From contig NZ_CP107811.1 of NCBI RefSeq assembly GCF_036346105.1, positions 3,476,501 to 3,540,500 of the forward strand: 64,000 nt of DNA, read 5' to 3'. A program made the position numbers and the translations under genes. The number at the start of each line of letters is the position of its first letter. The stretch's first letter is position 1. The notes under the pieces were generated by a model. It was not told the DNA's origin, did not search any database, and saw only the letters and a list, made by a program, of their open reading frames with translations. The DNA comes from Streptomyces sp. NBC_00539 (GTDB taxonomy: Bacteria; Actinomycetota; Actinomycetes; Streptomycetales; Streptomycetaceae). This document shows, one piece after another, positions 12,245-61,164 of this stretch.

Positions 12245-14299
12245 ATGACGGCCACCGCCCCCACCCCGGCCCGCGCCCGCGCCACGGCATTCCTGCCACG
12301 GCTCGCGCTGGTCCTCGCAGCCCTGCTGGCATCCCTGTTCACCGCGGCCGGCCCGGCCACGGCACACGCCGCACTCACCGCGAGCGACCCGAAGGACGGG
12401 GCGGTGGTCGCCACGGCACCCGCCCAGGTCACCCTCTCCTTCTCGGAGCAGGTCGCCATGGGCGACGACTCGATCCGCGTGATGGACCCCCAGGGCAAGC
12501 GGGTCGACACCGGCGAACTCCGCGACATGTGCAGCGGGTCCACCATCCGCTACGGCACCGCCCTGCATTCCGGGCTGCCCAACGGCACGTACACGGTCGC
12601 CTGGCAGGCCGTTTCCGCCGACAGCCACCCTGTTTCCGGTGCCTTCACCTTCTCCGTCGGCGCTCCGTCGGCCACTCAGGTCGCCCTTCCCACGCAGAAG
12701 GCGGGCGGCGGACCCGTGGGCATCGCCTACGGCATCGCCCGGTACGCCGCCTACATCGGCTTCACCCTCCTCGTCGGGGGCGCCGCCTTCATCCTGCTGT
12801 GCTGGCGGCGGGGCTCGGCCGAGCGACCGTTGCAGAAGCTGGTGATGCGCGGCTGGGTACTGCTCACCGCGGCCACCCTGGCGATGCTGATGCTCCGCAA
12901 CCCGTACACCGGGTCGGGCAGGTTCGCCGACGCCTTCGACCTCGTCGGACTCAAGGCTGTCCTCGACACCAAGGCCGGCGCCTCGCTCGTGTCGAGGCTG
13001 CTGCTGCTCGGGGCAGCGGCGCTCTTCGTGGCGGTGCTCTTTGGTGCTTACGCGCGCCGGCAGCAGGTCGCCGCACAGGACGGGAACGTCGAGCCGGTTG
13101 AAGGTGACGGGGCAGGCGGGGCCGAGGGGGCGGTGGACGAACGCAAGGACACGAGCGACCTCGCCTTCGGACTCGGTGTCGGAGGGGCCGTCGTGGCCGG
13201 TGGTATCGCCGCCACTTGGGCCCTGTCGGAGCACGCCTCCACCGGTATCCAGCCCGGGATCGCGATGCCGGTCGACATCCTGCACCTGCTCGCTGTCGCC
13301 ACCTGGCTCGGAGGTCTCGCCGCGCTGCTGGTCGCCCTGTACAAGATCCCCGGCATCGAGCGCGAGGCCGTCCGGCGTTTCTCGCAGGTCGCGTTCCTCA
13401 GCGTCCTGGTGCTGGTCGTCACCGGCGTCTACCAGTCCTGGCGGCAGCTGGGCAGCTGGTCCGCCCTGACCGGCACCAGCTACGGGCGGCTTCTACTGAT
13501 CAAGATCGCGCTCGTCGGCGTCCTCGTCGGCATCGCCTACCTCTCCCGGTCCTGGACCGCTCGGCTCTCGGATGGCCGGACGGAGGCGGCGCAGGGGGAT
13601 GTTTCACGTGAAACACAGCTGAATGTTTCACGTGAAACATCGAAGCGTGAAGCAGCACCTGCCGAAGCGGAGGTAGCGGAAGCGGAGGTAGCGGAAGCGG
13701 CGCTGGTGACGGTCCCCGCCGACCCGAGGCGTGTCGCCCAGTTGGCACGGCAGCGCACCGCCCGTGAGAACGCCCGATCCAGGCAGGTGCGGGACGCCGA
13801 CCCCGGGCGCGCCGGTCTTCGCCGCTCCGTCCTGGCAGAGGCCGCCGTCGCGATCGCGTTGCTGGCCGTCACCACCGTCCTGACCAACACCGAGCCGGGG
13901 CGCACCGCGGAACTGGAGACGGGACGGGGCTCGACGGCGGCCACTGCCGTCCCCAACCGGCCCATCAAGATCACGCTGCCCTTCGACACGGGTGGCCCCC
14001 AGGGCAAGGGCACCATCCGGCTGGAGCTCGCTCCGGGCCGGGTCGGCGCCAACGGCCTCCACCTGTGGGCGGAGAATCCCGACGGACAGCCCCTCGACCT
14101 CCCCGAGGTGAAGGTCTCCTTCACCCTCCCCTCCAAGGAGATCGGTCCGCTGCCGGCCCTTCCCGACCGCGCGGCTCCGGGACACTGGAGCGCGGACGGC
14201 GTACAGCTGCCGCTCGCGGGCGAGTGGCGCATCGACATCACCGTCCGGACCTCCGACATCGACCAGACGACCGTCCAGAAGAACGTGAAGATCGGCTGA
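12245..14299 (+). CDS. CopC-CopD fusion copper protein, with two parS sites inside its coding sequence
   Basis: 684 residues. Signal peptide (1-41), a CopC domain (42-137) with the mature N-terminal His (HAALTASDP) and the SADSHPVSG loop that bind Cu(II), then an eight- or nine-helix CopD membrane domain (about 155-445). A hydrophilic linker (about 450-520) holds two VSRET pentapeptides, each encoded by a parS site, and a tandem EAEVA repeat. A further helix (about 528-545) precedes an extracytoplasmic beta-rich YtkA/CopC-like C-terminal domain. It should move copper between the outside and the membrane or cytoplasm. It lies between ecuC and dtpA in one operon (22-base and 5-base gaps). Confidence 0.92.
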   Translation: MTATAPTPARARATAFLPRLALVLAALLASLFTAAGPATAHAALTASDPKDGAVVATAPAQVTLSFSEQVAMGDDSIRVMDPQGKRVDTGELRDMCSGSTIRYGTALHSGLPNGTYTVAWQAVSADSHPVSGAFTFSVGAPSATQVALPTQKAGGGPVGIAYGIARYAAYIGFTLLVGGAAFILLCWRRGSAERPLQKLVMRGWVLLTAATLAMLMLRNPYTGSGRFADAFDLVGLKAVLDTKAGASLVSRLLLLGAAALFVAVLFGAYARRQQVAAQDGNVEPVEGDGAGGAEGAVDERKDTSDLAFGLGVGGAVVAGGIAATWALSEHASTGIQPGIAMPVDILHLLAVATWLGGLAALLVALYKIPGIEREAVRRFSQVAFLSVLVLVVTGVYQSWRQLGSWSALTGTSYGRLLLIKIALVGVLVGIAYLSRSWTARLSDGRTEAAQGDVSRETQLNVSRETSKREAAPAEAEVAEAEVAEAALVTVPADPRRVAQLARQRTARENARSRQVRDADPGRAGLRRSVLAEAAVAIALLAVTTVLTNTEPGRTAELETGRGSTAATAVPNRPIKITLPFDTGGPQGKGTIRLELAPGRVGANGLHLWAENPDGQPLDLPEVKVSFTLPSKEIGPLPALPDRAAPGHWSADGVQLPLAGEWRIDITVRTSDIDQTTVQKNVKIG
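13601..13638. other. parS: two parS sites inside the copCD coding sequence
   Basis: GTTTCACGTGAAAC occurs at 13601-13614 and 13625-13638, 24 bases apart. It is the Streptomyces ParB-binding palindrome used for chromosome segregation. Both copies are read in the same frame of copCD, each giving Val-Ser-Arg-Glu-Thr in the protein's linker. Confidence 0.93.
13664..13693 (+). repeat. 15-bp tandem repeat in the copCD linker
   Basis: GAAGCGGAGGTAGCG occurs twice head-to-tail (13664-13678, 13679-13693) with a decayed third start at 13694. It encodes EAEVA units and keeps the reading frame. It follows the parS pair within 26 bases. Confidence 0.85.
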
Positions 14300-14304
14300 C
14301 CAGC

Positions 14305-15591
14305 GTGACCCACAGCACCGAGAGCAACCCCGACATCGAGATCTCGCGGCGCCGCCTGCTGGGCACGGTGGGCGCCGCGGGCGCCGCCGGTCTGGCACTC
14401 GGCGCCACCGGCGGCGCCCTGGTGCACTCCGCACTGGCCGACTCCCCGGAGGCCGGGTCGAAGGGCGGCGTGGGGACCGCCGCCTCGCTCGGCGCGACCC
14501 GGATCGCCTTTCACGGGGACCACCAGGCCGGCATCACCACCCCGCTCCAGGCCAAGGGGCACGTCCTCGCCTTCGACCTCGCGCCCGGCGCCGGGCGTAC
14601 GGAAGCCGCCGCCCTGATGCGCCGCTGGTCGGACACCGCCCGGCGGCTGATGGCCGGCGAGACCGCCCCCACGGCCGACACCGGGATCGCCCTCGACGCC
14701 GGGCCCTCGTCCCTGACCGTCACCTTCGGGTTCGGCCATTCCTTCTTCGAGCGCACCGGACTGGCCTCCCGCCGGCCGACCGCCCTCGACCCGCTGCCGG
14801 ACTTCTCCTCCGACCGGCTCGACCCCCAGCGCAGCAATGGCGACCTCTGGATCCAGATCGGCGCCGACGACGGGCTCGTCGCCTTCCACGCCCTGCGGGC
14901 CCTGCAGAGAGACGCCGGGGAAGCCGCTCGGGTCCGCTGGCAGATGAATGGCTTCAACCGGTCCCCCGGTGCCACGAGCACCCCGATGACCGCCCGGAAC
15001 CTGATGGGCCAGGTGGACGGCACCGCGAACCCGAAGCCGGCCGACCCCGACTTCGACAAGCGGATCTTCGTGCCGGCCGCGGGCCCCGGCCCGGCCGAGC
15101 ACTCCTGGATGGCGGGGGGCTCCTACGCCGTCGTGCGCCGGATCCGGATGCTGCTCGACGAGTGGGACAAGCAGTCCACCCTCCAGCAGGAGCAGGTCAT
15201 CGGCCGTACCAAGGCCACGGGTGCCCCTCTGACCGGCGGAAGCGAGACCTCGAAGATGGACCTCGCGAAGCTGGGCGCCGACGGCAAGCCGGTGATCCCG
15301 GCGAACGCGCACGCACGGATCTCAGCCCCCGAACAGAACGGCGGGGCCGCCATGCTCCGCCGACCGTTCTCCTTCCACGACGGCATCGCCCCCGACGGCT
15401 CCCCCGACGCCGGTCTGCTGTTCATCTGCTGGCAGGCCGACCCGCTGCGCGGCTTCGTGCCCGTCCAGCGCAAGCTCGACCGGGGTGACGCGCTGTCGGA
15501 GTTCATCAGGCACGAGTCCAGCGGCTTGTACGCCGTCCCGCCCGGCCCGCGGCCCGGGGAGTACGTCGGGCAACGGCTGCTCGAAGGGTGA
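14305..15591 (+). CDS. dtpA: DyP-type haem peroxidase, Tat-exported (DtpA)
   Basis: 428 residues. Twin-arginine signal (ISRRRLLGTVG, residues 11-21, then a hydrophobic run ending near ALA). The DyP signature GQVDGTAN supplies the catalytic Asp, and HARISAPEQ holds the proximal haem-binding His; FSFHDGI and the GLLFICWQ strand are also typical. In S. lividans, DtpA is a Tat substrate needed with Sco and ECuC to mature the copper radical oxidase GlxA and for normal morphogenesis; the same neighbourhood here supports this role. EfeB/YwbN-type iron release is the alternative, but no efeUO genes are adjacent. GTG 14305 lies five bases after the copCD stop. Confidence 0.92.
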   Translation: MTHSTESNPDIEISRRRLLGTVGAAGAAGLALGATGGALVHSALADSPEAGSKGGVGTAASLGATRIAFHGDHQAGITTPLQAKGHVLAFDLAPGAGRTEAAALMRRWSDTARRLMAGETAPTADTGIALDAGPSSLTVTFGFGHSFFERTGLASRRPTALDPLPDFSSDRLDPQRSNGDLWIQIGADDGLVAFHALRALQRDAGEAARVRWQMNGFNRSPGATSTPMTARNLMGQVDGTANPKPADPDFDKRIFVPAAGPGPAEHSWMAGGSYAVVRRIRMLLDEWDKQSTLQQEQVIGRTKATGAPLTGGSETSKMDLAKLGADGKPVIPANAHARISAPEQNGGAAMLRRPFSFHDGIAPDGSPDAGLLFICWQADPLRGFVPVQRKLDRGDALSEFIRHESSGLYAVPPGPRPGEYVGQRLLEG

Positions 15592-15633
15592 ACATCCCGC
15601 CGGGCGAGACCGCCCCGGCATTAGGCTGATCGC

Positions 15634-16569: not shown

Positions 16570-16579
16570 CACTCGTCCA

Positions 16580-16600
16580 CTGTCCACAGAGTTATCCACA
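16580..16600 (+). other. DnaA box pair, forward
   Basis: CTGTCCACA at 16580-16588 is one base from the Streptomyces consensus TTGTCCACA. TTATCCACA at 16592-16600 is the perfect E. coli-type box. They are three bases apart in the same orientation. Confidence 0.7.
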
Positions 16601-19341: not shown

Positions 19342-20007
19342 TCATGTTTCACGTGAAACATGCATGGTCGGCCGCGACGCGATCCCGTGCGGGTGACGGG
19401 TCAACGGCCAGGCGAGGAGACCGACGGCGAGCGAGATCGCGTGCCCCAGATCGGTGAAGGTGCCGCCCGTGAAGAGCGGGATCCCGAAGAAGGCGACGAT
19501 CCCGGCGAGATAGAGCCATCTCCACGGGCCGGGCAGCCGGTACGTGAGGACCCCGGCGGCGGCCGCGAGTCCGTAACTCACACCGATGTCGACGACATGG
19601 ACCATGCTGCGCGGGGCCCGGTGGTCCTGGATGGCCAGGAGGACCACCCTCTGGCTGATCAAGGTGGCGGTGATGTGGGCGGCCGCCACGATCACCAGCC
19701 AGCGCAGCGTGCCGAGCCAGCGCTCGACCGGGGCGTGGAAGACCTCGAAGAGAACGGCGTACTGGGCGAGCGAGGCCGGGTTCTCGATCCAGAAGGCGCT
19801 GGATACCAGGGCCCGTACCGGGTGCCGGGTGAGTTCGTGGATATTGCTGCTGTTGCGGTGGAGCAGGACGTGCTCCAGGCGGTCGGGCGCGACCACGACG
19901 ATGACGCTGGTGACGGCGATGATCAGCAGCCAGATGTGCGTACCGGGCGAGGAACGTATCCAGGACCACAAGGGCCTGGACGGCTCGGCCTCTGGGTGAG
20001 GCGTCAT
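19342..20007 (-). CDS. rhomboid-like integral membrane protein ending in a parS-encoded tail
   Basis: 221 residues with six predicted helices. A His-Glu pair follows the first loop (NIHELTRHPVRALVSSAFW), as in rhomboid-fold proteins, but the Ser (GxSG) and His residues of active rhomboid proteases are not evident; it is probably a non-peptidase member of the fold. The last seven residues, MHVSRET, are encoded by a parS site (19346-19359), so the C-terminus exists because the frame runs through it. ATG 20007 is chosen because it begins the conserved part. It is 84 bases downstream of the ABC operon in the same direction and may be cotranscribed. Confidence 0.75.
   Translation of the reverse strand: MTPHPEAEPSRPLWSWIRSSPGTHIWLLIIAVTSVIVVVAPDRLEHVLLHRNSSNIHELTRHPVRALVSSAFWIENPASLAQYAVLFEVFHAPVERWLGTLRWLVIVAAAHITATLISQRVVLLAIQDHRAPRSMVHVVDIGVSYGLAAAAGVLTYRLPGPWRWLYLAGIVAFFGIPLFTGGTFTDLGHAISLAVGLLAWPLTRHPHGIASRPTMHVSRET
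19346..19359. other. parS: parS site at the 3' end of the rhomboid-like gene
   Basis: GTTTCACGTGAAAC, perfect, within an 18-base palindrome when flanking CAT/ATG is included. It lies inside the last codons of the leftward gene. Confidence 0.93.
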
Positions 20008-29344: not shown

Positions 29345-31213
29345 ATGACGTCCACGACCCCGGCGCAATCGTCGGCCCCGCCCGACCCGGCGGCCAACAG
29401 CTTCCAGGTAGACCTGCGCGGCCTGGTCGACCTGCTCTCCCACCACCTCTACTCCAGCCCTCGCGTCTACGTGCGCGAGCTCATGCAGAACGCCGTGGAC
29501 GCCATCACCGCACGTCAGGCCATCGAGCCGGACGCGCAGCCCCGGATCCGGCTGTGGGCCGCGGACGGAGCGGTGGGCATTTCGGACAGCGGCATCGGAC
29601 TGACCGCCGACGAGGCGCACTCCCTGCTCGCCACCATCGGCAGGAGCTCCAAGCGCGGCGGCGAACACGGCCTGGAGACGGCGCGCAAGGACTTCCTCGG
29701 GCAGTTCGGCATCGGTCTGCTCGCCTGCTTCGTCGTGGCCACCGAAATCCGCGTCATCACGCGGTCCGCGCGCGACCTCACCGCGCCGCCCGTCGAGTGG
29801 CTGGCAAAGGACGACGGCTCGTACACCGTCCGCGAGCTGGACCACGACGCCGGACACGAACCCGGTACCACCGTCTTGCTGCGTGCCCGCCACGGCGCCG
29901 AGGAGTGGATGGTCCCCGCCAAGGTCGAGCAACTCGCCCGGGACTACGGCTCGCTGCTTCCCTACGACATCACCTTCCAGGCGGGACCCGACGCCGAACC
30001 GCGCTCCGTCACCGACCGCCCGGCCGTGTGGGACCGCCCCTATCCCACCCCGGCTGCCCGCCGCGTCGCGCTGGCGGCCCACTGCGCACAGGCCTTCGGA
30101 TTCACCCCGCTCGACAGCATCGACCTCGACCTGCCCGTGGCCGGTGTGCGTGGCGTCGCCTACGTCCTGCCCGAACCGACCAGTCCCGCACACCGGTCCG
30201 GCCACCGCGTCCACCTCAAGGGCATGCTCCTCACCGACCAGGCGAGCAACCTGCTGCCGGACTGGGCGTTCTTCGTCCGCGTCGTCCTGGACACCGACAC
30301 ACTGCGTCCCACCGCCTCCCGCGAAAACCTGTACGACGACGAGACCCTGGCCGCCGTACGGGAAGCGCTCGGCTCCCGCATCCGGACCTGGCTCGCCGAG
30401 CTGGCCGCGAGCGAACCCGAGCGGCTCGCAACCTTCCTGGGTGTCCACCACCTCGGCGTGAAGTCCCTGGCCCGGCACGACGCCGAACTGCTGGGCCTGA
30501 TGCTGCCGTGGCTGCCGTTCGAAACCAGCGACGGCTCTATGAGCCTGGAGGAGTTCGCGGCCGCGCACAGCGACATCCACTTCACGCGCACCGTCGAGGA
30601 GTTCCGCCAGATCGCTCCGATCGCGGCGGCCCACGGGCTCGGCGTCATCAACGCCGGCTACACCTACGACGCCGACCTGCTGGCCTTGTTGCCCGCCGTA
30701 CGCCCCGACCTCAAGGTGACGGAACTGGACGCCGGAGCCGTCACCGAGCGCCTCGACCCCGTCCCCACCGACGTCGAACTCGCCCTCGCCGGATTCCTCT
30801 CCAGCGCACGCACCCGACTCGAAGCACAGGGCTGTGACGTGGTGTTGCGCGCCTTCCAGCCCGTCGCCGTCCCCGCGCTCTACCTCGACGACCGCCAGGC
30901 CCGGCAGGAGCGCGACCGCACCGCGGCCCTGGACAGCGCCGATTCGCTCTGGACCGGGATCCTCGGCGCCCTGCGCGGTTCCGCACCGCGCGCCCGCTTG
31001 GTCCTGAACCACAACAACCCGCTGATCCGACGCATCGCCGGCCTCCCCGACGAGGCCCTCACCGGAACCGCCGTCGAGTCGCTGTACGGGCAGGCACTGC
31101 TGATGTCCCAGCGACCGCTGCGCCCCGCCGACTCGGCCCTGCTCAACCGGGCGTTCCTGGGGCTTCTGGAATGGGCGACCCACTCCCACGACGCCCAGGA
31201 GGGCCACAAGTGA
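29345..31213 (+). CDS. HSP90-family (GHKL ATPase) chaperone-like protein
   Basis: 622 residues. The N-terminal GHKL ATP-binding domain holds ELMQNAVDAI (Glu/Asn), DSGIGL and the lid GQFGIGLLACF, all matching HtpG/Hsp90. A middle domain follows with RPTASREN, the Hsp90 loop carrying the catalytic Arg. The C-terminal third is diverged from HtpG. It is not the housekeeping HtpG but a separate actinobacterial HSP90-family group. A Pro/Ser-rich first 20 residues precede the fold. The stop overlaps the start of the next gene (GTGA): the ATPase and the giant helical-repeat protein are made together and probably act together. Confidence 0.92.
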   Translation: MTSTTPAQSSAPPDPAANSFQVDLRGLVDLLSHHLYSSPRVYVRELMQNAVDAITARQAIEPDAQPRIRLWAADGAVGISDSGIGLTADEAHSLLATIGRSSKRGGEHGLETARKDFLGQFGIGLLACFVVATEIRVITRSARDLTAPPVEWLAKDDGSYTVRELDHDAGHEPGTTVLLRARHGAEEWMVPAKVEQLARDYGSLLPYDITFQAGPDAEPRSVTDRPAVWDRPYPTPAARRVALAAHCAQAFGFTPLDSIDLDLPVAGVRGVAYVLPEPTSPAHRSGHRVHLKGMLLTDQASNLLPDWAFFVRVVLDTDTLRPTASRENLYDDETLAAVREALGSRIRTWLAELAASEPERLATFLGVHHLGVKSLARHDAELLGLMLPWLPFETSDGSMSLEEFAAAHSDIHFTRTVEEFRQIAPIAAAHGLGVINAGYTYDADLLALLPAVRPDLKVTELDAGAVTERLDPVPTDVELALAGFLSSARTRLEAQGCDVVLRAFQPVAVPALYLDDRQARQERDRTAALDSADSLWTGILGALRGSAPRARLVLNHNNPLIRRIAGLPDEALTGTAVESLYGQALLMSQRPLRPADSALLNRAFLGLLEWATHSHDAQEGHK

Positions 31214-34200
31214 CGACCCTGACACGCGAGGAGATCGAGCGCGGCCTGGCGGAGAACCGTCACGCGCCCGGGGGCGCGGCCCGCAATGCCCACGCCGAGG
31301 TGCTGGCAGGCGCGGCCGAGGCGAGCGGCGACGCCGCCCTTTTCCGTGAGGCGCTGGACAACCTCATCAACGCCTACCTCTACAGCGCCGAGTCCCCGAA
31401 GCTGCTGGTGCCCTTCGCCCGGCTGCTCCAGGAGTACGACAAGGACCCCGGTGCCTTTTCCGAAGGCGCCACGCACTCGCTGTTCTGGCAGTTCAAGTGG
31501 GTGGCCACGGCCATCGGCAACTCTCCCGACATTCCTCTCGAGTCCGCCGCCGGCTGGCTGGAGGACATGGAGCGCCGCTACCGGATCGCCGGTTACAGCG
31601 AACGCCCCGTACGCGAGGCCGAGATGTGGCTCGCCGACGCGACCGGTGACGACGAGCGGGCCGAACGCGCCTTCCGCGCCTGGCGCGGCACCGATCGCGA
31701 CCAGATGAGCGACTGCCACGCCTGCGAGGACAACAGCCAGGGTCAGTACGCCGTTCTGCGCGGCGACGACGCCCAGGCCCTGGACGTCTGGAAGTACGTG
31801 CTGGAAGGGCAGCGCGTGTGCGCCGAGGAGCCCCACCGGGTCCTGGCCACCTCGTTGCTGCCCTTGCTGCGAGTCGGGCGCTTCGATGAGGCCCGCTCCC
31901 ACCACCTGCGCGGCTACCGTCTGGTCCGGGGCAACGAGAGCCTGCTGCCCTCGGTCGGGAAGCACATCGAGTTCTGCGCGCTCACCGGCAACGAGTCGCG
32001 CGGCCTGGAGATCCTCGCCGAACACGCCCCCCACATGAGCCCGCTCGGCAACGACCGCGACCAGCTGGTCTTCCACGGCGGTGTCCTCGTACTGCTGCGT
32101 CGGCTGCGGGAGCTGGGGCACGGACAGAGCCCGGCCGTCGCCTACGACGGCAGACTGCACAGCGTCTCCGAGCTGTACGAGATCCTCCTCGCCGGCTCGC
32201 TGCACACTGCCCGGCGCTTCGACGCGCGCAACGGCACGACCCGGGTCTCCGACCGGTTCCTCGCACGGATCGCGCAGGAGCCGCTGGTCGGGATGCTTGC
32301 GCTGGGCGTGCGCAGCCCTTCCCTGCCGTCCACGACGGCGGCCGCTCCAGCGCCCGCACCTGCCGGCGCGCGGACCGAGACCGTGACGGGCGACCTCAGC
32401 GAGCTCGTCGGCCGGGCCAGGGCGGCACGCGAGCAGGGGCGTCCGGCCGCTAACGGGCTCTGGAGCCAGGTGGCGGTACTGCTGGACGCGGGCCCACAGG
32501 ATGCAGTCGACCCGCTGGTCTCGGCCGATGTCGCAGACCACCGGGCGCTGACCGCCGCGCGCGCCGGATCGGTCGACGCCGCGGAGCAGCTGACAGCCGT
32601 GCGCGATACCTACCGGGCGCTCGGGCAGGCGGAGCGGGCCGCGCTCGCGGAGCTCCGTCTGGCGACCGTGGCCGCGCAGTCGGGCGCCGAGCCCGACAAG
32701 ATCCGCGCTCTGCTGGGCGTGGCCCTGAGGGCCGCCGAGGCGCTGGACCCGGCGGACCCCGTACGGACCCGCCGGATCGCGCTCGCGGAACTGGCGTCGA
32801 TCCGCGTGGGCTCGTACCTGCGCTCGGTCGAGGAACCCCGTCAGGGCGCGGGGCACGGCCACGCGCCCGGGGAGGATCACGGGCACGGTGAACTGTCGGC
32901 CGAGCTGAACGCCTTCGTCGCCGCCTACGCGCAGGCGGTTCCCGATGTGGTGGCGGAGGCGGAGGAGGTGCTGGGCCGCGTGGCGCTCGCCCAGGACGAC
33001 CCTGAGCGTGCCCTGCCCCTGCTGGCCTCAGCCGCGGCTCGGGCGATCGGCGCGGGCCGTCCCTGGATCGCCGTTGATCCGCTGGTGCTGCGGGCCGGCG
33101 TGCTGTCGTCACTCGGCCGGCCCGGGGAAGCCGAGGAAGCGGCCCGTTCCGCATGGGAGAACGCCGCGGAGGTGACCGACGCCGAGACACAGGGCGTCGT
33201 ACGGCTCACGCTCGCCGACATCCTTTTGCGCCGCGCCAACGCACAAGAGGGAGCCGCCGAAGACGCACGAAAAGGTGCCGCGGAGCAGGCGGCCGAGCAC
33301 GCGCTCACGGCGGCCCACTGGTTCGACCAGGCCGGTCTCAGCGCCGATGGCGGCGCCCAGGCCCGGCTGCTGCTTGCCCGCGCCTATGCCCGCACCGGCC
33401 GGACCGCCGAAGCGGCGGAGGTACTGCAGTCGGCGATGCCGGATCTGCTGGAGCACGGAGACGGTCAGGCCGTCGCCGCCCACGAGTTCCTCGGTGATCT
33501 ACTGCGCGAGCTACGGGAATGGCGTGCCTCGGCGGAGCAGTACGTGCAGGCGGCGGAGATCAGCAAGGAGTGGGAGGACCCTCGTCCGCAGGCGCGCTTC
33601 GCCCAGTCGGCCGCCGATCAGCTCTCCAGCGCGGAACTGGTGCCCGAAGCGGTCGCCGCCTATGAGCAGGCCCTCCAGCTCCACCGGCAGGCGGGCGGCG
33701 CACCGATCGCCGAAGTACGCATCCTGCGTTCGCTGGCCTGGCTGGGACTGCGTCCGGACGTGACCGGGGCGGCCGTGGCCTCTGCCCGGAACCGGATGGA
33801 CGAGGCGGCCGACGTACTGGTGTCCGCGCTCGCCCTCGACCCCCAGTCTCGGGAACTGCGGGCCGAGCTCGCCCAGACCTGGCATCAGCTGGCGCAGGTG
33901 CTGGACCGTTGGGTGACTTCGAGGGAAGCAGCCGCCAGGGAAGCGGCCGGTGCCGACGCCGGCCCGGATGCGGAAGCGCAGGGCGCGGCCGAGGCCGAGA
34001 CGCTGCGACTGGAGGAGATCCGGCTGTGGGAGCAGGCGGCCGGTCTCTACGCCGAGCTCGGCCCCGACCTCGTCCAGGACCGCCTCCAGTGCCTGAACAA
34101 CGCCGCTTGGACCGAGCACGAGCGGGGCCGCCCCAAGGCGGGCGCCGAGCGGATTTCGGCCCTGATCGAGGAGATCCGGGCGCTGCCCGAGGGGACCGTG

Positions 34201-34254
34201 CCGGAGTGGGTGCTGCCGCAGGCTGAACGGATCGTCACAAGCCTGCTCTCCTGA
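31210..34254 (+). CDS. 1014-residue TPR-like helical-repeat protein coupled to the HSP90-family protein
   Basis: Almost entirely alpha-helical, Ala/Glu/Leu-rich, with many 34-residue-like units (for example [55 protein letters not shown]) typical of tetratricopeptide repeats, strongest from about residue 560 to the end. Residues 1-380 form another helical block containing SDCHACEDN. No catalytic motif or membrane segment. GTG 31210 overlaps the upstream stop by four bases. Eukaryotic Hsp90 uses TPR co-chaperones; this pair could be a bacterial parallel, or a signalling scaffold. That function is inference. A terminator follows at 34271. Confidence 0.85.
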
Positions 34255-34339: not shown

Positions 34340-35245
34340 TCAGCCGTTCAGCTGGGCCGGTGCCTCGGTGGCGATCCGCTCGAAGACGGCCTCATCGGCC
34401 GCGAAGTCGGAGTCCGGAATCGGCGCGTGAATGACCAGCTCGGTGAAGCCCATCTCCTGGTGGCGGCCCGCGAAGTCCACGAACGCGTCGAGGGAATCCA
34501 GTACGGCGCTGCCCTCCGGGGTGAACCCGGTGAGGAGGATCTTCTCCATCGAGGCGGGGTCCCGCCCGACCTCGGCGAATGCCTTGTCCAGCTTCTCCAG
34601 CTGCCCGCGCAGGGCTTCCCGTGACTGCTCCGGCGTACCGTTCTCCGCCAGCTTCGGGTCGCCGGTGGTCACCCAGGCCTGGCCATGCTGGGCGGCGAGC
34701 TTCATACCCCGCGGGCCGGTCGCCGCGACCGCGAAGGGCAGGCGCGGTCCCTGGATGCAGCCCGGGATGTTGCGGGCCTCTTCGGCGGAGTAGAAAGTGC
34801 CGTGGTGCGTGACGGCTCCCTCGGTGAGCAGCCGGTCCAGAAGCGGCACGAACTCGGCCAGACGGTCGGCCCGCTCTCGCGGCGTCCAAGGCTCCTGGCC
34901 CAGCGCGGTCGCGTCGAAGCCGTTTCCGCCGGCGCCGATACCGAGGGTGATGCGGCCTCCGGAGATGTCGTCCAGCGACATGAGGTCCTTGGCAAGCGTC
35001 ACCGGGTGCCGGAAATTCGGGGAGGTGACCAGCGTGCCCAGGCGCAGCCGGTCGGTGACGGCGGCCGCCGCGGTCAACGTGGGGACCGCGCCGAACCACG
35101 GGCCGTCACGGAAGGTCCGCCAGGACAGGTGGTCGTAGGTGTAGGCGGTGTGGAATCCAAGCCGCTCGGCCCGTACCCACTGGTCACGGCCTCCGGCGTG
35201 CCAAGGCCGTACCGGGAGGATCACAGTGCTCAAACGCAGACTCAT
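34340..35245 (-). CDS. LLM class (F420/FMN-dependent) oxidoreductase
   Basis: 301 residues, luciferase-like TIM barrel. Family marks: [11 protein letters not shown] near residue 35, [38 protein letters not shown] and the [18 protein letters not shown] segment. In actinomycetes this family usually uses coenzyme F420 or reduced FMN; the substrate cannot be told. It stands alone, convergent with the TPR-like gene. ATG 35245 fits the conserved N-terminus. Two parS sites lie upstream (35308, 35337). Confidence 0.9.
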
Positions 35246-35307: not shown

Positions 35308-35350
35308 GTTTCACGTGAAACATCGGCTCCGGCGGTGTTTCACGTGAAAC
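35308..35350. other. parS: two parS sites between the LLM and HAD genes
   Basis: GTTTCACGTGAAAC at 35308-35321 and 35337-35350, both perfect, 29 bases apart in a 171-base divergent intergenic region. They lie where promoters for both genes are expected, so ParB loading could affect transcription. Confidence 0.95.
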
Positions 35351-35416: not shown

Positions 35417-36289
35417 GTGACCTCGGCTCCCCAGCGCCCGGACGGGCCTCTCTCCGCTCCCCGGCTCATCGCCACAGACCTCGACGGCACCCTGCTGCGC
35501 GACGACAAGACCGTCTCTCCCCGCACGGTCGCCGCGCTCGCCGCCGCCGAGCAGGCCGGTATCGAGGTCTTCTTCGTCACGGGCCGCCCGGCCCGCTGGA
35601 TGGGCGTGGTCAGCGATCACGTCCACGGCCATGGCCTGGCTATCTGCGCCAATGGCGCAGCCGTGGTCGACCTCCACGCCGGCGGTGAATTCGTGCAGGT
35701 CCGGTCCCTGCCCAGGGCCACCGCGCTGACGGTCGTGGACGCACTGCGGGCCGCCGCACCCGGTACGTCGTTCGCGGTCGAACTGACCACCGGCATCAAT
35801 TACGAGCCGTCGTATCCGCCGTTCTTCCAGGACCCCGGAGCCGCCGTCGCCATCGCGGAGAAGCTGCTGAGCGAGGAGCTGGACGACACTGCCGCTCCGG
35901 TGCTCAAGCTCCTCGCACACCACTCCGAGCTGGCGCCGGACGATTTCCTGGCTCTGGCCCGCTCCGCGGCCGGCGCTTATGCCTCCATCACCCGCTCCAG
36001 CCCTACGTCCTTGCTGGAGATCAGCGGGCTCGGTGTGTCCAAGGCGAGCACGCTGGCCCTGTGCTGCGCCGAGCGTGGCATTTCCCCCGCGGAGGTCGTC
36101 GCCTTCGGGGACATGCCGAACGATCTGGAGATGCTGACCTGGGCAGGCACCTCGTACGCGATGGGCAATGCCCACCCCGATGTGCTCGCGAGTGCCTCGG
36201 ACCGTACCGTCGCCAACAACGAGGACGGGGTCGCCCTCGTCATCGAACGCATCCTGGCCGAAGGCACCGACCCTCAGCCGGGGCTCTGA
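35417..36289 (+). CDS. Cof-type HAD-IIB phosphatase
   Basis: 290 residues. Motif [13 protein letters not shown], Thr in FFVTGRP, C2B cap with HHSELAPDDF, and GVSKASTLAL plus FGDMPNDLEM for motifs III and IV. It is a paralogue of the protein at 18380 (about the same length, identical core motifs). GTG 35417 has GAAGATGGAG upstream; an in-frame ATG at 35399 would add six residues but lacks a ribosome site. Substrate unknown (sugar phosphate or cofactor phosphate). Convergent with the sensor kinase gene; the 54-base gap holds a short duplicated segment. Confidence 0.88.
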   Translation: MTSAPQRPDGPLSAPRLIATDLDGTLLRDDKTVSPRTVAALAAAEQAGIEVFFVTGRPARWMGVVSDHVHGHGLAICANGAAVVDLHAGGEFVQVRSLPRATALTVVDALRAAAPGTSFAVELTTGINYEPSYPPFFQDPGAAVAIAEKLLSEELDDTAAPVLKLLAHHSELAPDDFLALARSAAGAYASITRSSPTSLLEISGLGVSKASTLALCCAERGISPAEVVAFGDMPNDLEMLTWAGTSYAMGNAHPDVLASASDRTVANNEDGVALVIERILAEGTDPQPGL

Positions 36290-41100: not shown

Positions 41101-41716
41101 CGTCCAGGAAGTGCCCCGACAGCCGGGACAGCAGCCGCCACTGGCGGTCCATCCGGGACTGAGTGGCCATACCGATCAGAGTCATGAACAGCGGAATCAG
41201 CGGCAGGGTGGCCATGATGATGGCTGCCGAGACCCAGTCCTCGGTGACGATGCGGGCGAGAACCGCCACCGGCACGACCACCGCGAGCCCCAGTTGGGGC
41301 AAGTAGCGGGAGAAGTAGTCGTCGAGTGCGTCGACGCCTCGGGTGGCCAGCGCCACCAGCGAGCCGGTCCGCTGCCCGCTCAGCCAACCCGGTCCGAGAT
41401 CCGCGGCCCGGTCCAGCAGCCGGTCCCGTAGCTCCGACTTGACGGCCGCGCCGGCCCGGTGGGCGGCACGTTCCGTGAGCCAGGCGATCAGAGCGCGCCC
41501 CAGCGCCACCGCTGCGAGCAGCAGCAGTGGCGTCCGGAGCGTTTCTGCATCCAGCCCCTTTTCGAAGGCACCGACCACGATCTCGGCGAGGAGCATCGCC
41601 TGTCCGACGATCAGCCCCGCACCGGCGAGCCCGAGGGCCACCACCGCAGCCAGGAAGAGGCGGGTGGATCGGGCGTAGCGCAGCAGGCGCGGGTCGATCG
41701 GTTTCACGTGAAACAT
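38105..41716 (-). CDS. cydDC: CydD-CydC fused thiol-exporting ABC transporter
   Basis: 1203 residues, two complete ABC exporter halves in one chain. First half (CydD-like): six helices, Walker A GPSGAGKST, signature LSAGQRQRLALARA, Walker B VLLLDEPTAAL. A repetitive Asp/Pro/Ala linker near residue 560-575 joins it to the second half (CydC-like): Walker A GPSGSGKTT, signature MSGGQRQRLALARA, Walker B VLVLDEPAEHVD. CydDC exports glutathione/cysteine-type thiols and is required for cytochrome bd assembly. The start codon lies on a parS site: MFHVKP is encoded by it (41701-41716). It is 43 bases from cydB in the same operon. Confidence 0.93.
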   Translation of the reverse strand: MFHVKPIDPRLLRYARSTRLFLAAVVALGLAGAGLIVGQAMLLAEIVVGAFEKGLDAETLRTPLLLLAAVALGRALIAWLTERAAHRAGAAVKSELRDRLLDRAADLGPGWLSGQRTGSLVALATRGVDALDDYFSRYLPQLGLAVVVPVAVLARIVTEDWVSAAIIMATLPLIPLFMTLIGMATQSRMDRQWRLLSRLSGHFLDVVAGLPTLKVFGRAKAQAESIRKITDDYRQATMRTLRIAFLSSFALELLATLSVALVAVTIGMRLVHGDLDLYTGLVILILAPEAYLPLRQVGAQYHAAAEGLSAAEEIFKVLETPVTASGGTGEVPARGLRIELDEVAVRYPGRGADSPGPVSLAVEPGECVALTGPSGAGKSTLLQVLLGFVTPTSGRVRVAGSDLTELAMEEWRERIAWVPQRPHLFAGTIAENVRLARPAASDDAVSRALRDAGALEFVTGLPQGLDTPLGEGGTGLSAGQRQRLALARAFLADRPVLLLDEPTAALDGETEAGVVEAVRRLAVGRTVLLVVHRPALLAVADRVVELPAADPAVDPTAGPAADPTAGPAAGFGRAPARASAVVIGQEAVGSGDEPSGPGEWILGRAPERTAKGQGSGGAGTHPLTRVRAVAKAWQGRFRLGLLLGALAVGCSVGLMAVSGWLISRASEQPPVLYLMVAVTATRTFGIGRAVFRYAERLVSHDAVLRMLADLRVSVYRRLERIAPAGLREQRRGDLLSRLVADADALQDYWLRWLLPVGTAVLVGSGSVAFTAWLLPEAGAALAFGLLATGVGVPLVSGAVARRAERRLAPARGELATRVADLLTGTAELTVAGALDGRKAAAKQGDRTLTMIASRGADATGLGSGLSALVGGLTVVCAAALGANAVAGGRLAGVAMAVIVLTPLAAFEAVVGLPQAVQYRQRVRRSAERIYEVIDAPMPVGEPEQAAARPASPFPLRLTGVAARHPGQETDALHGLDLTLEPGRRIAVVGPSGSGKTTLAQVLLRFLDQREGSYTLGGTQARSLDSDDVRRLVGLCAQDAHLFDSSLRENLRLARTDASDARLRDALSAARLLEWVDSLPDGLDTLVGEHGERMSGGQRQRLALARALLADFPVLVLDEPAEHVDLRTADALTTDLLAATEGRTTVLITHRLAGLEAVDEVLVLDRGRVVQRGAYGELATAEGPLRRLLERERETDGTLADFHS
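41701..41714. other. parS: parS site covering the first codons of cydDC
   Basis: GTTTCACGTGAAAC, perfect. Read on the minus strand with the preceding AT it gives ATGTTTCACGTGAAACC, codons 1-6 of cydDC. Confidence 0.93.
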
Positions 41717-49040: not shown

Positions 49041-49856
49041 ATGCACATGACCAGCGCTCCGCACCTGCTCACCGAAGACCGACCGGAGTTCGATCGGCTC
49101 CTCGACGAGGCGCTGCGCACCGCGAACGAACGGCCAGAGCTCGCTTCCATGGGCGAACGGCTGAACGCCGAACAATTGCGCACCATGGCCATGAGTGCCA
49201 GCGCCTTGCTGACGGCAGCGGCCGCAGCCGAGTACGACCACTACGTCAAGGTCCGCGCGGAACTCCGCGACGAACACCTCTCCGCCCCCGGTACGACGGA
49301 CGAGGGCGAGGGCGACGGGCAGAACGACGGCGTGGGCGTGAGCGCCGTGGTCGCAGTCCTCGCGCCGGTCCTGGCCGGCACGGCCATGCTGATCTTCCTG
49401 TTGGTCGGCTACAGCCTCAAGATGATCGACCCCGAGCCGGCCTTCGCCCGCACGATGCTGACGGCGGGGTGGCTCTTCGGCGGGCTCACCGTGGCCGCAC
49501 TGCTCTTCGCCGTGATCGGCCTGCTCGTGACCGCCGTCCGCAACAGCTCCACCGAGGTGGCGGCCGAGGAGGCGGTGGCGGTACCCGACGAGCTCTCGCG
49601 CGCGCGGGAGGCCTGGCGCAACGCCCTACTGGAACGAGGCATCATGCCGTTCCTGCGGGACGCACTGGCCGATCCGAGCGCGGGCCCCGGGTATCCGATC
49701 CCCCGAACGCCCCACGCCGGCCGCATACCCAGCCTGGGATACACCCGGCCGGACTTCACCAGTCCCGCAGCCACGTCCAAGGGACCCCGCCCGGACTACA
49801 CCCCGCCCGACTTCACCAGCCCCGACTTCGGAGGCTCCGAAGCCGACCGGGAGTGA
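49041..49856 (+). CDS. two-helix membrane protein of unknown function
   Basis: 271 residues. A helical N-terminal cytoplasmic part (1-85), two membrane helices (about 98-122 and 136-165) and a C-terminal cytoplasmic tail with a Pro/Asp/Phe-rich motif repeated as YTRPDFTSP, DYTPPDFTSP, FTSPDFGG (last 45 residues). I do not recognise the family. The (P)DFTSP repeats may bind a partner domain. ATG 49041 has GGAG nine bases upstream; ATG 49047 is also possible. The gene ends two bases before a parS site and a terminator. Confidence 0.75.
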   Translation: MHMTSAPHLLTEDRPEFDRLLDEALRTANERPELASMGERLNAEQLRTMAMSASALLTAAAAAEYDHYVKVRAELRDEHLSAPGTTDEGEGDGQNDGVGVSAVVAVLAPVLAGTAMLIFLLVGYSLKMIDPEPAFARTMLTAGWLFGGLTVAALLFAVIGLLVTAVRNSSTEVAAEEAVAVPDELSRAREAWRNALLERGIMPFLRDALADPSAGPGYPIPRTPHAGRIPSLGYTRPDFTSPAATSKGPRPDYTPPDFTSPDFGGSEADRE

Positions 49857-49857: not shown

Positions 49858-49871
49858 GTTTCACGTGAAAC
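49858..49871. other. parS: parS site between the two-helix membrane protein gene and thiC
   Basis: GTTTCACGTGAAAC, perfect, beginning one base after the stop codon of the rightward gene. Confidence 0.95.
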
Positions 49872-49978: not shown

Positions 49979-51898
<1,920 letters not shown>

Positions 51899-51978
51899 TG
51901 TGCAAAGTAGCCCCCACGCTAGCGTCATCTGTGGCGTGCTGAACAGTGGGCCCCCGCAACTCTTGCGATGATCGGCCG

Positions 51979-53469: not shown

Positions 53470-53919
53470 TCAGCCGGCGTTCTGCTCGTTGTGCCGGGCT
53501 TCGGCGAGGATCTTGTCAAGCGCCTCGTCGAGCGTCCCCTCGAAGTCTCCGAGGTTGCGTTCCTGACCGAGCGGAACCAGCCGGTCGGTGCGGTCGAGAA
53601 AGGCGACCAGCGGCGCCGCTCCCGCGCGGAACAGGGCCCGTTCGCCGCCGACCTGCAGGCGGATGTGGACGTCCGACAGTTCATCGGGGTGGGACGGGGC
53701 GATGTGCACATCGCCGTCGCCACAGGGCTTGTTGATGCCATCGAGGAGCAGCTCCCGACCGAACGCCCAGGTCACGGGCGCGTCTCCGGGAAGGTGGAAG
53801 GTCAGTCGCACTGCGTAGGGGTCGTGAGCGTCGTACCGGAGTTCCACCGGGATCCGGAAGGAGAGCTCCTCGGAGACGAGAAAGCTCATCATGACCTCTG
53901 CCTGTACCGACTCGCGCAT
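53470..53919 (-). CDS. ssgA: sporulation protein SsgA (SsgA-like protein family)
   Basis: 149 residues. The opening MRESVQAEVMMSFLVSEELSF, the core LRYDAHDPYAVRLTFHLPGD and FLDRTDRLVPLGQER are nearly as I remember SsgA itself. SsgA is confined to sporulating actinomycetes; it marks sites of germ-tube emergence and septation and positions SsgB/FtsZ. The C-terminal 20 residues are slightly longer and more acidic than in typical SALPs. It follows ssgR on the same strand (99-base gap), its known activator. Confidence 0.95.
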   Translation of the reverse strand: MRESVQAEVMMSFLVSEELSFRIPVELRYDAHDPYAVRLTFHLPGDAPVTWAFGRELLLDGINKPCGDGDVHIAPSHPDELSDVHIRLQVGGERALFRAGAAPLVAFLDRTDRLVPLGQERNLGDFEGTLDEALDKILAEARHNEQNAG

Positions 53920-56185: not shown

Positions 56186-56224
56186 CCGGCCACCCGTACC
56201 GCGCGTGTTGAAGGAGCCCATCCC

Positions 56225-57382: not shown

Positions 57383-57398
57383 GTGGATGAGCGGGAGT

Positions 57399-57429
57399 GG
57401 TCCGAGCCTCCCCCCTCTTGGCTCGGACC
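57399..57429 (+). terminator. perfect 10-bp terminator after the PLP lyase gene
   Basis: GGTCCGAGCC (57399-57408) and GGCTCGGACC (57420-57429) with an 11-base C/T-rich loop. Confidence 0.88.
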
Positions 57430-57558
57430 CCCCGCTGGTTCCCTCGGTGAAGAACCACATCCACAAGGCTAGTTGACTTAGCGTCAGAGTCCAATCACGG
57501 TAGCGACAGGGGCCTATCGGCATATTTATAGTTGAAGGCCCCAACGAGAGGGGCCGCC

Positions 57559-58464
57559 ATGGACCTGGCCCTGTTGCGTACCTTCGTCGCGGTGCACCGG
57601 GCCGGCTCGTTCACCCGTGCCGCCGCACTGCTCGGGCTGTCCCAGCCCGCCGTCACCTCGCAGATCCGCACCCTCGAACGGCAACTGGGCCGGCCGCTCT
57701 TCCACCGCCGGGCTCGTGGGGTAACGCCCACCGCGATCGGTGACGAGCTCGCCCACAAAGCCGCTCCCCACCTCGACGCATTGCTGCGCATCGCCGAGAC
57801 GGAACGCGAGGCGGCCGGCGGGTTACGCACGCTGCACATCGCCGGTCCCCCCGAGTTCGTGTGCCAGCGCGTGCTCCCGGCCCTGGCGCCTCTCGTGGGA
57901 CAAGGCCAGACCCTGCGCACCGCCCTCAAGGCCGACGCCGAGGAGGCCCTCGACGGACTGTCCGCCGGGCAGCACGACCTCGTCGTCACCACCGGTCGTC
58001 CCCGTGGCGGCCCGGTCACTGCCACCGCCCTGTGCGACGAGGAACAGGTACTCGTCGCCGCGCCCTACTGGGCCGCGCTCGTCGATCCGGTCCTTCTGCG
58101 GGCCAAGGGCGGCGGCAGCCCGGCCGCCCTCGAAGGGATCCCGGTCGTGGAGGTCCACGAGAGCCTCCCCCTCATCACGCGCTACTGGGCCGCCGTCTTC
58201 GATGCGCTGCCGGAAGCCGCCGCCACCGTCGTCGTGCCCGACCTGAGGGCGGTACGAGAGTGTGTCCGGGCCGGCGCCGGGCTCGCCGTGCTGCCCCGTT
58301 ACCTCTGCCAGGACGCCATCGACCGCGGCCAGATCGTCTCTCTGCTGGAGCCCGCGGTACCACCCCTGCGTACCTGGTTCGTCGTCGTACGGACTGGCAG
58401 TCTGGCGCTCGCCCACCTCGCCCGGGCCCATGACCGGCTGCTGCGCGCCGCCGTGGACTGGTGA
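57559..58464 (+). CDS. LysR family transcriptional regulator
   Basis: 301 residues. LysR HTH at the N-terminus (LRTFVAVHRAGSFTRAAALLGLSQPAVTSQIR, residues about 6-37) and a PBP-like effector domain (about 88-300). Helix alpha-4 and domain length are standard. The ATG at 57559 follows GAGAGGGG; the longer TTG form lacks a ribosome site. The regulated gene is not obvious: the next genes are unrelated, and no gene diverges immediately upstream. Confidence 0.92.
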   Translation: MDLALLRTFVAVHRAGSFTRAAALLGLSQPAVTSQIRTLERQLGRPLFHRRARGVTPTAIGDELAHKAAPHLDALLRIAETEREAAGGLRTLHIAGPPEFVCQRVLPALAPLVGQGQTLRTALKADAEEALDGLSAGQHDLVVTTGRPRGGPVTATALCDEEQVLVAAPYWAALVDPVLLRAKGGGSPAALEGIPVVEVHESLPLITRYWAAVFDALPEAAATVVVPDLRAVRECVRAGAGLAVLPRYLCQDAIDRGQIVSLLEPAVPPLRTWFVVVRTGSLALAHLARAHDRLLRAAVDW

Positions 58465-58550
58465 TCCGCCGCCGCGGAGTACAGACCGCGGAAACCGCGT
58501 GTTTCGCGACCACGCGTTTCAGAAGCGGAAGAGTGGGCCACTCTTCTCCC

Positions 58551-59030
58551 ATGACCGAACGTCCCGTCGTCAAACGCACCGCCCGCGCGATCCTGCTCGA
58601 CGGTGACGACCTGATCCTCATCAAACGCACCAAGCCCGGCCTCGACCCGTACTGGCTCACTCCCGGCGGGGGGGTGGAGCCCACGGACGCCACCGTGGTC
58701 GACGCCCTGCACCGGGAAGTCCACGAGGAACTCGGCGCCAAGATCGTCGACGTGGTGCCCTGCTTCGTGGACACCGTCGAGCACATCGCCGACGGCGGAG
58801 TGACCGGCGTCAAGGTGCAGCACTTCTTCGTCTGCCGTCTGGAGTCCATGGATCCCGCACAACGGCACGGCCCCGAGATCGACGAGCCCGAGGGCGAATA
58901 CGAGATCGTCCGTGTGCCGTTCAGCCGGGTCGGCATCGCGGCCGTCCACCTCGTCCCGCTGTCCCTGCGCCACTACCTCGACGGCAACATCGAAGGCGTA
59001 CGGGCGATGCACGCCCCCGACCTGCGCTGA
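58551..59030 (+). CDS. Nudix hydrolase
   Basis: 159 residues. Nudix box GGGVEPTDATVVDALHREVHEELGA fits GX5EX7REUXEEXGU with a two-residue expansion. It should cleave a nucleoside diphosphate linked to another moiety; substrate unknown. ATG 58551 (MTERPVVKRTARAILL) is chosen. A GTG at 58461 overlaps the LysR stop, so a 30-residue longer coupled form is possible. Convergent with the flavohemoglobin gene 34 bases on. Confidence 0.88.
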   Translation: MTERPVVKRTARAILLDGDDLILIKRTKPGLDPYWLTPGGGVEPTDATVVDALHREVHEELGAKIVDVVPCFVDTVEHIADGGVTGVKVQHFFVCRLESMDPAQRHGPEIDEPEGEYEIVRVPFSRVGIAAVHLVPLSLRHYLDGNIEGVRAMHAPDLR

Positions 59031-59064
59031 CGATCTGCCGAGGGGCCGAGGGGCAGTCGCCGGG

Positions 59065-60252
59065 TCAGCCGGCGGCTCCCACCAACTCCTCGACCGAGTC
59101 GTAGCGGATCCGCTCCCACGGGATCCCGATCCGCTTGAGGGCGTCCACACCATTGCGGACCATCGCCGGCGGACCCGAGATGAAGGCGTCGTACGAGCTC
59201 CAGGGCCCGTTCGCACCGACGGCCTGGGGCAGCTGCCCCGCCAACCCCTCCCCGACGACCGGACGTACCGACAGCCAAGGATGTGACCGCTGCAGCCCGA
59301 GCAGCGTGTCCTTGTCGTACAGGTCGGTGTCGCTGCGCGCTCCGAAGAAGACTTCCATGCGGCGTCGTTCACCGTGCTCCGCCACATCCTCGATCAACGC
59401 CTTGATCGGGGCGATGCCCGTCCCGCCGCCGAGGCAGAGCATCCCGTTGTCCGTGCTGTGGTCCACCACCATCGATCCGGCCGGAGGGCCCAGGCGCAGG
59501 ACATCACCCGGCCGGGCGTGACGCACCAGGGCGTTGGAGACCCAACCCGCCGGAACGGCCTTGACGTGGAAAGACAGCAACCCGTCGGCGCGCGGGGCGG
59601 AGGCGAAGGAATAGTGCCGCCAGACCCGAGGCCACCACGGGGTCTCCAGGCTCGTGTACTGGCCTGCGAGGAATGCGTACGGCCGGTCCGGGCGCACCGT
59701 CAGCACCGCGATGTCCGGTGTCCGCAGATCGTGGGCGACCACCTCCGCGTGCCACCAGGCCGGCGCTTTGAACTCGTCCTCGGCCGCCGCGTCGATCATG
59801 ATCTGGGAAATCAAGGTGTACGCCCGCACCCATGCGGCCTCGGCTTCCGGCCCCCAGGTCAGCTCCGCGTACCGGGACAGCGCCCCCATCAGCGCCTCGC
59901 CCACCAGGGGGTAGTGGCCTGCCATGGTTCCGTACTTGCGGTGGCCGGTGCCGAGCCGACGCAGATAGGGGGTGAGCACCTCGGGATCGTCGATGTGTTC
60001 GGCGGCCGTGAGGAGCGCCTTCAGCAGCCGGTCGCGCTGGGTGTCCATGGCCACGGGGAACATCTCCCGCACCTCGGGTTGCCGCGTGAACAGCAGGGCG
60101 TAGAAGTACGAAGTGACCTTGTCGGCGATGGGCGCGATCTCCGCGAGCGTGCTGCGGATGAGTACGGCATCGGGGGAGGGCTCGGTCGCCCCGGCACCGG
60201 AAGGTATCCGGTCCGTCCCCCGTCTTGCCGGTCTGGTGGACGGAGCGTCCAT
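59065..60252 (-). CDS. flavohemoglobin-like globin with FAD/NAD(P)H reductase domain
   Basis: 395 residues. Globin domain (about 30-165) with the TSYFYALLF helix and the proximal His in LGTGHRKYG; then a ferredoxin-NADP reductase-like module: FAD site RHYSFAS (about 210-220), and NAD(P)H site GGGTGIAPI and FISGPPAMV. Such enzymes convert NO to nitrate with O2, or act as haem reductases. The first 30 residues are Pro/Arg/Ser-rich and not part of the fold. The upstream 139-base gap holds its promoter, with no Rex or NsrR site seen. Confidence 0.88.
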   Translation of the reverse strand: MDAPSTRPARRGTDRIPSGAGATEPSPDAVLIRSTLAEIAPIADKVTSYFYALLFTRQPEVREMFPVAMDTQRDRLLKALLTAAEHIDDPEVLTPYLRRLGTGHRKYGTMAGHYPLVGEALMGALSRYAELTWGPEAEAAWVRAYTLISQIMIDAAAEDEFKAPAWWHAEVVAHDLRTPDIAVLTVRPDRPYAFLAGQYTSLETPWWPRVWRHYSFASAPRADGLLSFHVKAVPAGWVSNALVRHARPGDVLRLGPPAGSMVVDHSTDNGMLCLGGGTGIAPIKALIEDVAEHGERRRMEVFFGARSDTDLYDKDTLLGLQRSHPWLSVRPVVGEGLAGQLPQAVGANGPWSSYDAFISGPPAMVRNGVDALKRIGIPWERIRYDSVEELVGAAG

Positions 60253-60391
60253 GCGGTGCCTCGCTTAGAGCATCTCGGTCGGTCTGCACACACCACGGTC
60301 GAATCCGTGGTTCCGGGCTTTATAGCGTGCCAGCGGACCGTGTGCCCCGCGGGGGAATGAGGAAACTCGGCGCTCGCATTCCCCTTTCCCC

Positions 60392-61048
60392 CTAAGATAC
60401 GGCGACTTCCTGACGTGTCGTCCCGAGGAGCCGGTACGCCTCGCGGAGGTCCCGTCCCTGGTAGATGTATGTGGCCCGCTCCGCCAGGTACTGCTGCGCG
60501 TTGACTGCAATCGACGTCGGTACCACCTCGAAGAGCACTGAATCGGTCAGAGAGTCCCCGTAGGCGACACAGTCGTTCCGGCTCACTCCGAACCGGGCGC
60601 ACAGCCGGTCGGCGACCTCCACCTTCCCCTCCGGGGTGAGGATCCCCGTGACGTCCATGGGCCCGGTGAAGGGGACCGCTGGGTAGACCGACCCGTGCGC
60701 GGCATCCGCTCCCCACTCCAGGAGCAACTCCACGAAGAAGGAGGGAGACAGTGAGATCACCGCGCAAAGATCACCACGTTCCTTGATCTCCCGCCACACC
60801 TCGCGGATCCCCTCCAGCCACGGGGCACCGTCGAACGCAGCCCGGACATGGGCGGCCGTCAGGTCCGACCACAATGCGTGCGCCGCCAGGGAGAACTCGT
60901 GCGGGCCGATCTCCCGGGCAGCGAAGGCCCGTTCCAGCTCGGCGATCTCCTGGCTGACGCCGAGCTGCCGGGAGATCTCTACCGGCGCCGCCGACCCGTA
61001 CATCAGGGTGCCATCGAGGTCGAAGAGGTGCAGACGCGTCATAGTCAT
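60392..61048 (-). CDS. HAD-superfamily phosphatase (SerB-like)
   Basis: 218 residues. Motif I LFDLDGTLM (Asp nucleophile), motif II Ser in AVISLSPSF, Lys in GKVEVADRL and the acidic motif YGDSLTDS. Size and cap resemble HAD-IB phosphatases near SerB, but the substrate is unknown. ATG 61048 (MTMTRLH) has GGAAG nine bases upstream. The frame stays open through two parS sites to GTG 61099, which would add MFHVKQAVSRET from parS codons; not favoured. Confidence 0.85.
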   Translation of the reverse strand: MTMTRLHLFDLDGTLMYGSAAPVEISRQLGVSQEIAELERAFAAREIGPHEFSLAAHALWSDLTAAHVRAAFDGAPWLEGIREVWREIKERGDLCAVISLSPSFFVELLLEWGADAAHGSVYPAVPFTGPMDVTGILTPEGKVEVADRLCARFGVSRNDCVAYGDSLTDSVLFEVVPTSIAVNAQQYLAERATYIYQGRDLREAYRLLGTTRQEVAVS

Positions 61049-61064
61049 CGAGGCTAGCTTCCAT

Positions 61065-61097
61065 GTTTCACGTGAAACAGCCTGTTTCACGTGAAAC
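61065..61097. other. parS: two parS sites upstream of the HAD phosphatase gene
   Basis: GTTTCACGTGAAAC at 61065-61078 and 61084-61097, both perfect, 19 bases apart, the closest pair in the window. Confidence 0.95.
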
Positions 61098-61150
61098 ACA
61101 GACCGGCCTCGACCCGGTGAGGCAGCAGCAGCCGGGCAGGCCGGACGGAT

Positions 61151-61164
61151 GTTTCACGTGAAAC
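61151..61164. other. parS: third parS site of the divergent region at 61.1 kb
   Basis: GTTTCACGTGAAAC, perfect, 67 bases after the pair at 61065/61084 and 55 bases before the GNAT gene start. The region 61049-61218 is thus the densest parS cluster seen. Confidence 0.95.

Follow-up and report, generated by a model that had tools for sequence, protein, structure and literature searches.

The ten palindromes of the parS type found in the window (the whole stretch of 64,000 nucleotides that was analysed, C1:3476501-3540500) are almost certainly chromosomal parS sites, with a probability of about 0.96. Under this reading, they form the outer, parAB-side part of a 29-site ParB-loading array around a Streptomyces-type replication origin.

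The 14-mer and its distribution in the genome

A pattern search for GTTTCACGTGAAAC in the window recovered ten exact matches, at 13601, 13625, 19346, 35308, 35337, 41701, 49858, 61065, 61084 and 61151, all of them positions reported in an earlier note on this DNA. The spacings given there for the sites within groups (24, 29, 19 and 67 bases from start to start) and the placement of seven of the ten sites in close groups were likewise correct. The earlier judgement that chance occurrence is unlikely was borne out by 100 dinucleotide-preserving shuffles of the window, none of which contained an exact match. With up to two mismatches allowed, no additional site was found in the window (shuffle mean of 0.05). 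The reversed pattern gave no match in the whole genome, as opposed to 29 for GTTTCACGTGAAAC, and 200 scrambled palindromes of equal composition gave none over 17 regions of 100 kb, as opposed to 211 for parS.

The 14-mer lies inside the 16-mer tGTTTCACGTGAAACa. In 17 genomes, the base after each half-site was A in 289, G in 86, C in 45 and T in 2 of the 422 half-flanks, with a regional T content of ~15%. This bias agrees with PMC7022226, in which parS of several bacteria is written as a 16-mer. The stricter statement that T never follows a half-site was rejected, as T was present in 2 of the 422 flanks, and avoidance of T is no general rule because the parS sequence printed for S. pneumoniae has T at this place (PMC7022226). 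AT was present on at least one side, making ATGTTTCACGTGAAA, in 93 of the 211 parS sites of the 17 genomes.

The earlier note had named the 14-mer as the known Streptomyces ParB site. The exact sequence is indeed in print as parS for M. smegmatis (PMC7022226) and for the chromosome of Embleya, which belongs to the same family (PMC13152386). M. smegmatis, unlike this genome, is given only three sites (PMC7022226). S. coelicolor has a similar number of sites near oriC (21 according to PMC7022226 or 24 according to PMC12207404), and in gel shifts its ParB tells parS apart from a scrambled version (PMC12207404). The consensus printed for this species, tGTTTCACCTGAAACa, is one letter off GTTTCACGTGAAAC (PMC7022226), and, as this form is no palindrome, we regarded it as a misprint.

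The genome comprises 7,505,305 bases in two contigs, C1 (7,068,336 bp) and C2 (436,969 bp). All 29 exact copies of the 14-mer were located on C1, between 3433459 and 3891126, a span of 457,654 bp or 6.5% of this contig; one-mismatch copies numbered only two genome-wide, at 3173826 and 3638620. The dnaA domain (C1:3576364-3576849) lies near the middle of C1, ~36 kb past the window. The sites ranged from -143 to +315 kb from it, with all 29 within 315 kb and 21 within 100 kb. A Kolmogorov-Smirnov test against a uniform distribution gave p values of 8e-7 for the sites and 7e-5 for the 20 clusters, and this test understates the central clustering. The genome-wide count and the distances from dnaA, both suggested as checks in the earlier note, thus revealed a distribution that is far from even.

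A ParB HTH domain was found at C1:3569709-3569999. In the corresponding locus (L105), the ParB frame (8957-10057, minus strand) contains ParB_N, HTH_ParB and ParB_C domains, and the frame of a ParA-type ATPase, parA, occupies 10054-11457 on the same strand. The two genes lie 29-31 kb past the window, and the longest parA frame contains, in its 5' part, the parS site at 3571810. DnaA-box-like matches (at most one mismatch to the consensus) numbered 23 in 40 kb, and eight of them shared one 500-bp bin from 3577500, directly after the dnaA domain, where oriC would be expected. The description of the sites as an origin-proximal centromere therefore stands, as they cluster around dnaA and the genome encodes ParA and ParB nearby. 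On the parAB side of dnaA there are 21 of the 29 sites, and on the opposite side there are 8. The window holds ten of them, 38.7-86.3 kb from the dnaA domain on the parAB side.

Two genes for ParB-domain proteins are present on C2, probably a large plasmid, yet the 14-mer was absent from this contig even at one mismatch; presumably, other centromere sites are therefore used on C2.

The sites and genes of the window

Genes were called with a codon-composition script. Six of the ten sites are intergenic, and four overlap proposed coding frames. The pair at 13601-13614 and 13625-13638 (24 bp from start to start) lies in the frame of a CopC/CopD protein, in which it encodes VSRETQLNVSRET and reads VSRET twice. 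The single site at 19346-19359 provides the last five codons (VSRET) of gene 19342-20007 (minus strand), and with them the C-terminus of its rhomboid-like product. The site at 41701-41714 overlaps the proposed start, and hence the N-terminus, of a cydDC ABC-exporter gene on the minus strand (ATGTTTCACGTGAAAC, MFHVK...); the script places this start nine bases later. With its flank (41701-41716), this parS makes up the ATG and the initial codons (MFHVK) of the gene. A second pair (35308-35321 and 35337-35350, 29 bp) lies between the divergent genes 34340-35224 (minus strand) and 35417-36289 (plus strand). The site at 49858-49871 is located between the convergent ends of gene 49041-49856 (plus strand) and thiC (49979-51766, minus strand). 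The triple at 61065, 61084 and 61151 (19 and 67 bp), which extends to 61164, is just upstream of an HAD-family gene (60392-61042, minus strand).

These locations bear on a rival explanation, in which the palindrome, with its CACGTG core, is the operator of a transcription factor whose many target genes happen to adjoin the origin. The sites at 35308/35337 and 61065-61151, upstream of or between divergent genes, and the one overlapping a start codon would suit an operator. However, two sites lie in the middle of a coding frame, one at a gene end and one between convergent gene ends. Furthermore, all 29 sites are confined to 6.5% of the chromosome, and the 14-mer is in print as parS in related actinobacteria (PMC7022226 and PMC13152386). 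We consider the operator explanation extremely improbable and retain the assignment of the sites as parS.

Some other features of the window were recorded. Gene 49979-51766 was also considered as a PEP carboxykinase gene, and this assignment was rejected in favour of thiC; its best named relatives among the matches listed are from S. cirratus (99%) and Streptomyces sp. CG 926 (98%), which, together with the congeners, points to a Streptomyces genome. A TPP riboswitch match upstream of thiC (51760-51906) scored 40.3 bits, under the gathering score of 54.3. An unusual gene pair occupies 29345-34254. Its first member has a weak HSP90 match (24.2 bits, slightly short of the Pfam cut-off), the second encodes a 1014-aa protein with weak TPR matches, and homologues of both were found in only 2 of 16 congeners (100-kb regions), G012 and G065. 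The small RNA Scr3920 (Rfam RF02828) was matched above its gathering score at 57392-57518 on the minus strand. An SsgA-family sporulation and cell division protein (PF04686) is encoded at 53470-53889, with an NCBIfam SsgD match under the cut-off of that model.

Conservation of the array and of its single sites

Exact sites numbered 8-36 in each of 18 congeners, as opposed to 0-3 in 12 genomes of other genera of the same order. From 60 congeners located by dnaA, we chose 16 with dnaA on a long contig and took 100 kb of the parAB side from each. Together with this genome, these 17 regions contained 211 exact, 20 one-mismatch and 4 two-mismatch sites. The sites were clustered around dnaA in 15 of the 16 congeners, the exception being G012, in which the array is apparently split. 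Complete site lists of the 15 congeners and this genome, with G012 left out for its incomplete list and split array, placed 213 of 265 sites (80%) on the parAB side. The most distant site of these 16 genomes was 348 kb from dnaA. Adjacent sites no more than 120 bp apart from start to start had spacings of 17 to 100 without a clear phase, the commonest being 22 and 34 with four cases each, and a preferred pair spacing was dropped as a candidate feature.

Single sites were compared in up to 16 congeners by asking for a parS no more than 500 bp from the projected place, with unmapped cells excluded. The site at 41701 had a syntenic parS in 12 of 14 mappable congeners, and those at 61065, 61084 and 61151 had one in 8, 8 and 9 of 15, respectively. 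The sites at 35308, 35337 and 49858 were each matched in one of 15 congeners and those at 13601 and 13625 each in one of 10, in every case G065. This is the closest fully comparable congener, with 84.6% DNA identity over 97 kb, and for 16 of the 17 sites that this genome carries in 100 kb, it has a parS no more than 400 bp from the syntenic place. The site at 19346 was matched in none of 11 mappable congeners. An inverted or moved region leaves G012 unmapped for the window sites; a counterpart of the 19346 site nevertheless occurs in this congener at 2068778, at the very start of the matching block. Of the ten window sites, four thus recur in roughly half of the mappable congeners or more, and six are nearly private to close relatives. 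Overall, 42 of 135 combinations of window site and congener had a syntenic parS, compared to 843 of 15,351 (5.5%) at random window positions, although grouped sites and related congeners are not independent in this comparison.

Outside the window, three sites at -19 kb and one at -4.6 kb mapped in all 16 congeners, the site at -7.7 kb in 14 of 16 and two sites at -31 kb in 12 of 15. Because the four sites found in all 16 congeners are nearer to dnaA and outside the window, the window represents the periphery of the arm on the parAB side and not the core of the array. Six window sites recur in only 0-1 of 10-15 mappable congeners and may therefore be individually dispensable.

A stronger form of this idea is that only the inner, genus-conserved sites matter, and that most outer sites of the window are recent passengers with little or no role. 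The difference between the -4.6 and -19 kb sites (16 of 16 congeners) and the six rarely shared window sites is in line with it. However, all ten window sites are perfect and the window contains no decaying copies, the 41701 site and the triple at 61 kb are widely shared, and ChIP-seq in S. venezuelae found ParB at 17 parS sites (PMC12511625). We consider the passenger explanation unlikely. An additional role can be imagined for the 41701 site. Since it coincides with the start of cydDC and maps in most mappable congeners, ParB loading could also tune the expression of this cytochrome-bd assembly exporter and so couple origin segregation to respiration, a dual use that we regard as very doubtful.

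The order of sites was also compared in other loci. An S. cirratus locus (L132) has the parS triple, the thiC site and the cydDC site in an order that matches the window, and another locus (L133) has the triple and the cydDC site without the thiC site. A parS was located just past the cydB homologue in 11 of the 24 loci examined (of 80), some of which end before that place. Near the origin, every one of the 16 congeners carries one or more parS sites at 9.7-10.8 kb from dnaA on the parAB side; in this genome, the place at -10 kb (~C1:3566000, by distance only) lacks a site. All 16 also have a parS pair at about -5 kb, and this genome has a single site at -4.6 kb (~C1:3571500, by distance only).

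Alignments of places with and without a site revealed no clean insertion of parS size in the 13 more similar of the 136 pairs of the 17 genomes. Five of 33 absent cases passed the filter, comprising four one-base motif variants and one replaced stretch, at three places in two genomes. An insertion origin of the parS sites is thus unsupported in this small sample of five usable cases.

In G012, dnaA is at 1.98 Mb, and blocks that correspond to +25 to +76 kb and to -146 to -124 kb in this genome are located at 705-812 kb. A further block, at 2.38-2.40 Mb, corresponds to the window from 56 kb to ~11 kb beyond its end. Exact parS sites are kept in the displaced blocks. Of the 27 sites of G012, 24 were located (20 from its site list and 4 in extracted segments), and sites extend from 716 kb to 2.41 Mb. 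G012 is possibly a natural experiment on centromere clustering, or a misassembly. If the split is real, tight clustering of parS is not absolute.

Predicted ParB loading and comparison with known arrays

A parS array of the S. coelicolor chromosome was reportedly described by Jakimowicz et al. in 2002. The arrays of 20 closed streptomycetes in PMC8743542 likewise comprise tens of sites near oriC, mostly on one side, with a one-sided bias of 79.86% as compared to the 213 of 265 found here. We infer that the "right" side of that paper is the parAB side here. The 29 exact matches of this genome exceed the mean of 22.8 sites and fall inside the range of 11-65 given there, where a matrix search was used (PMC8743542). 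In S. venezuelae, of the same genus, 16-17 parS sites near oriC are reported, with ParB bound at 17 by ChIP-seq (PMC12511625), whereas the sites described here are known from sequence.

Judging from these relatives, a ParB dimer would bind each palindrome. S. coelicolor ParB binds parS without needing CTP, which is required for further accumulation on DNA (PMC12207404). CTP would then allow ParB to form a closed clamp that slides for a few kilobases in either direction. SMC would be recruited and would stabilise the ParB complex; in S. venezuelae, SMC promotes the spreading of ParB, which reaches up to 2.5-3 kb on each side (PMC12511625). ParA would position the ParB-coated origin region at hyphal tips and space the chromosomes before spore septation.

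The distances between the six places in the window that carry sites are 5.7, 15.9, 6.4, 8.1 and 11.2 kb, all but one of them above 6 kb. With spreading of 2.5-3 kb on each side, six mostly separate patches would therefore be expected, not one continuous domain. ParB loading in the window is thus probably patchy. Its role is probably also not confined to sporulation, because ParB complexes are reported to anchor oriC at hyphal tips in vegetative growth as well (PMC12511625). The earlier note had described the window as part of a ParB-loaded region for chromosome segregation at sporulation. The presence of a parS array by parAB and dnaA agrees with that description; however, the region is better seen as six predicted loading places, and sporulation would be only one of their jobs.

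Arrays of parS around the origin are well described and ordinary for the genus, and there is little surprise in finding one here. The results confirm that a reading of the raw sequence was able to recognise a chromosomal centromere. The perfect parS copies within coding frames and the G012 array, apparently in distant blocks, are oddities worth keeping. With this analysis, an architecture already known from the genus is documented in one further genome.
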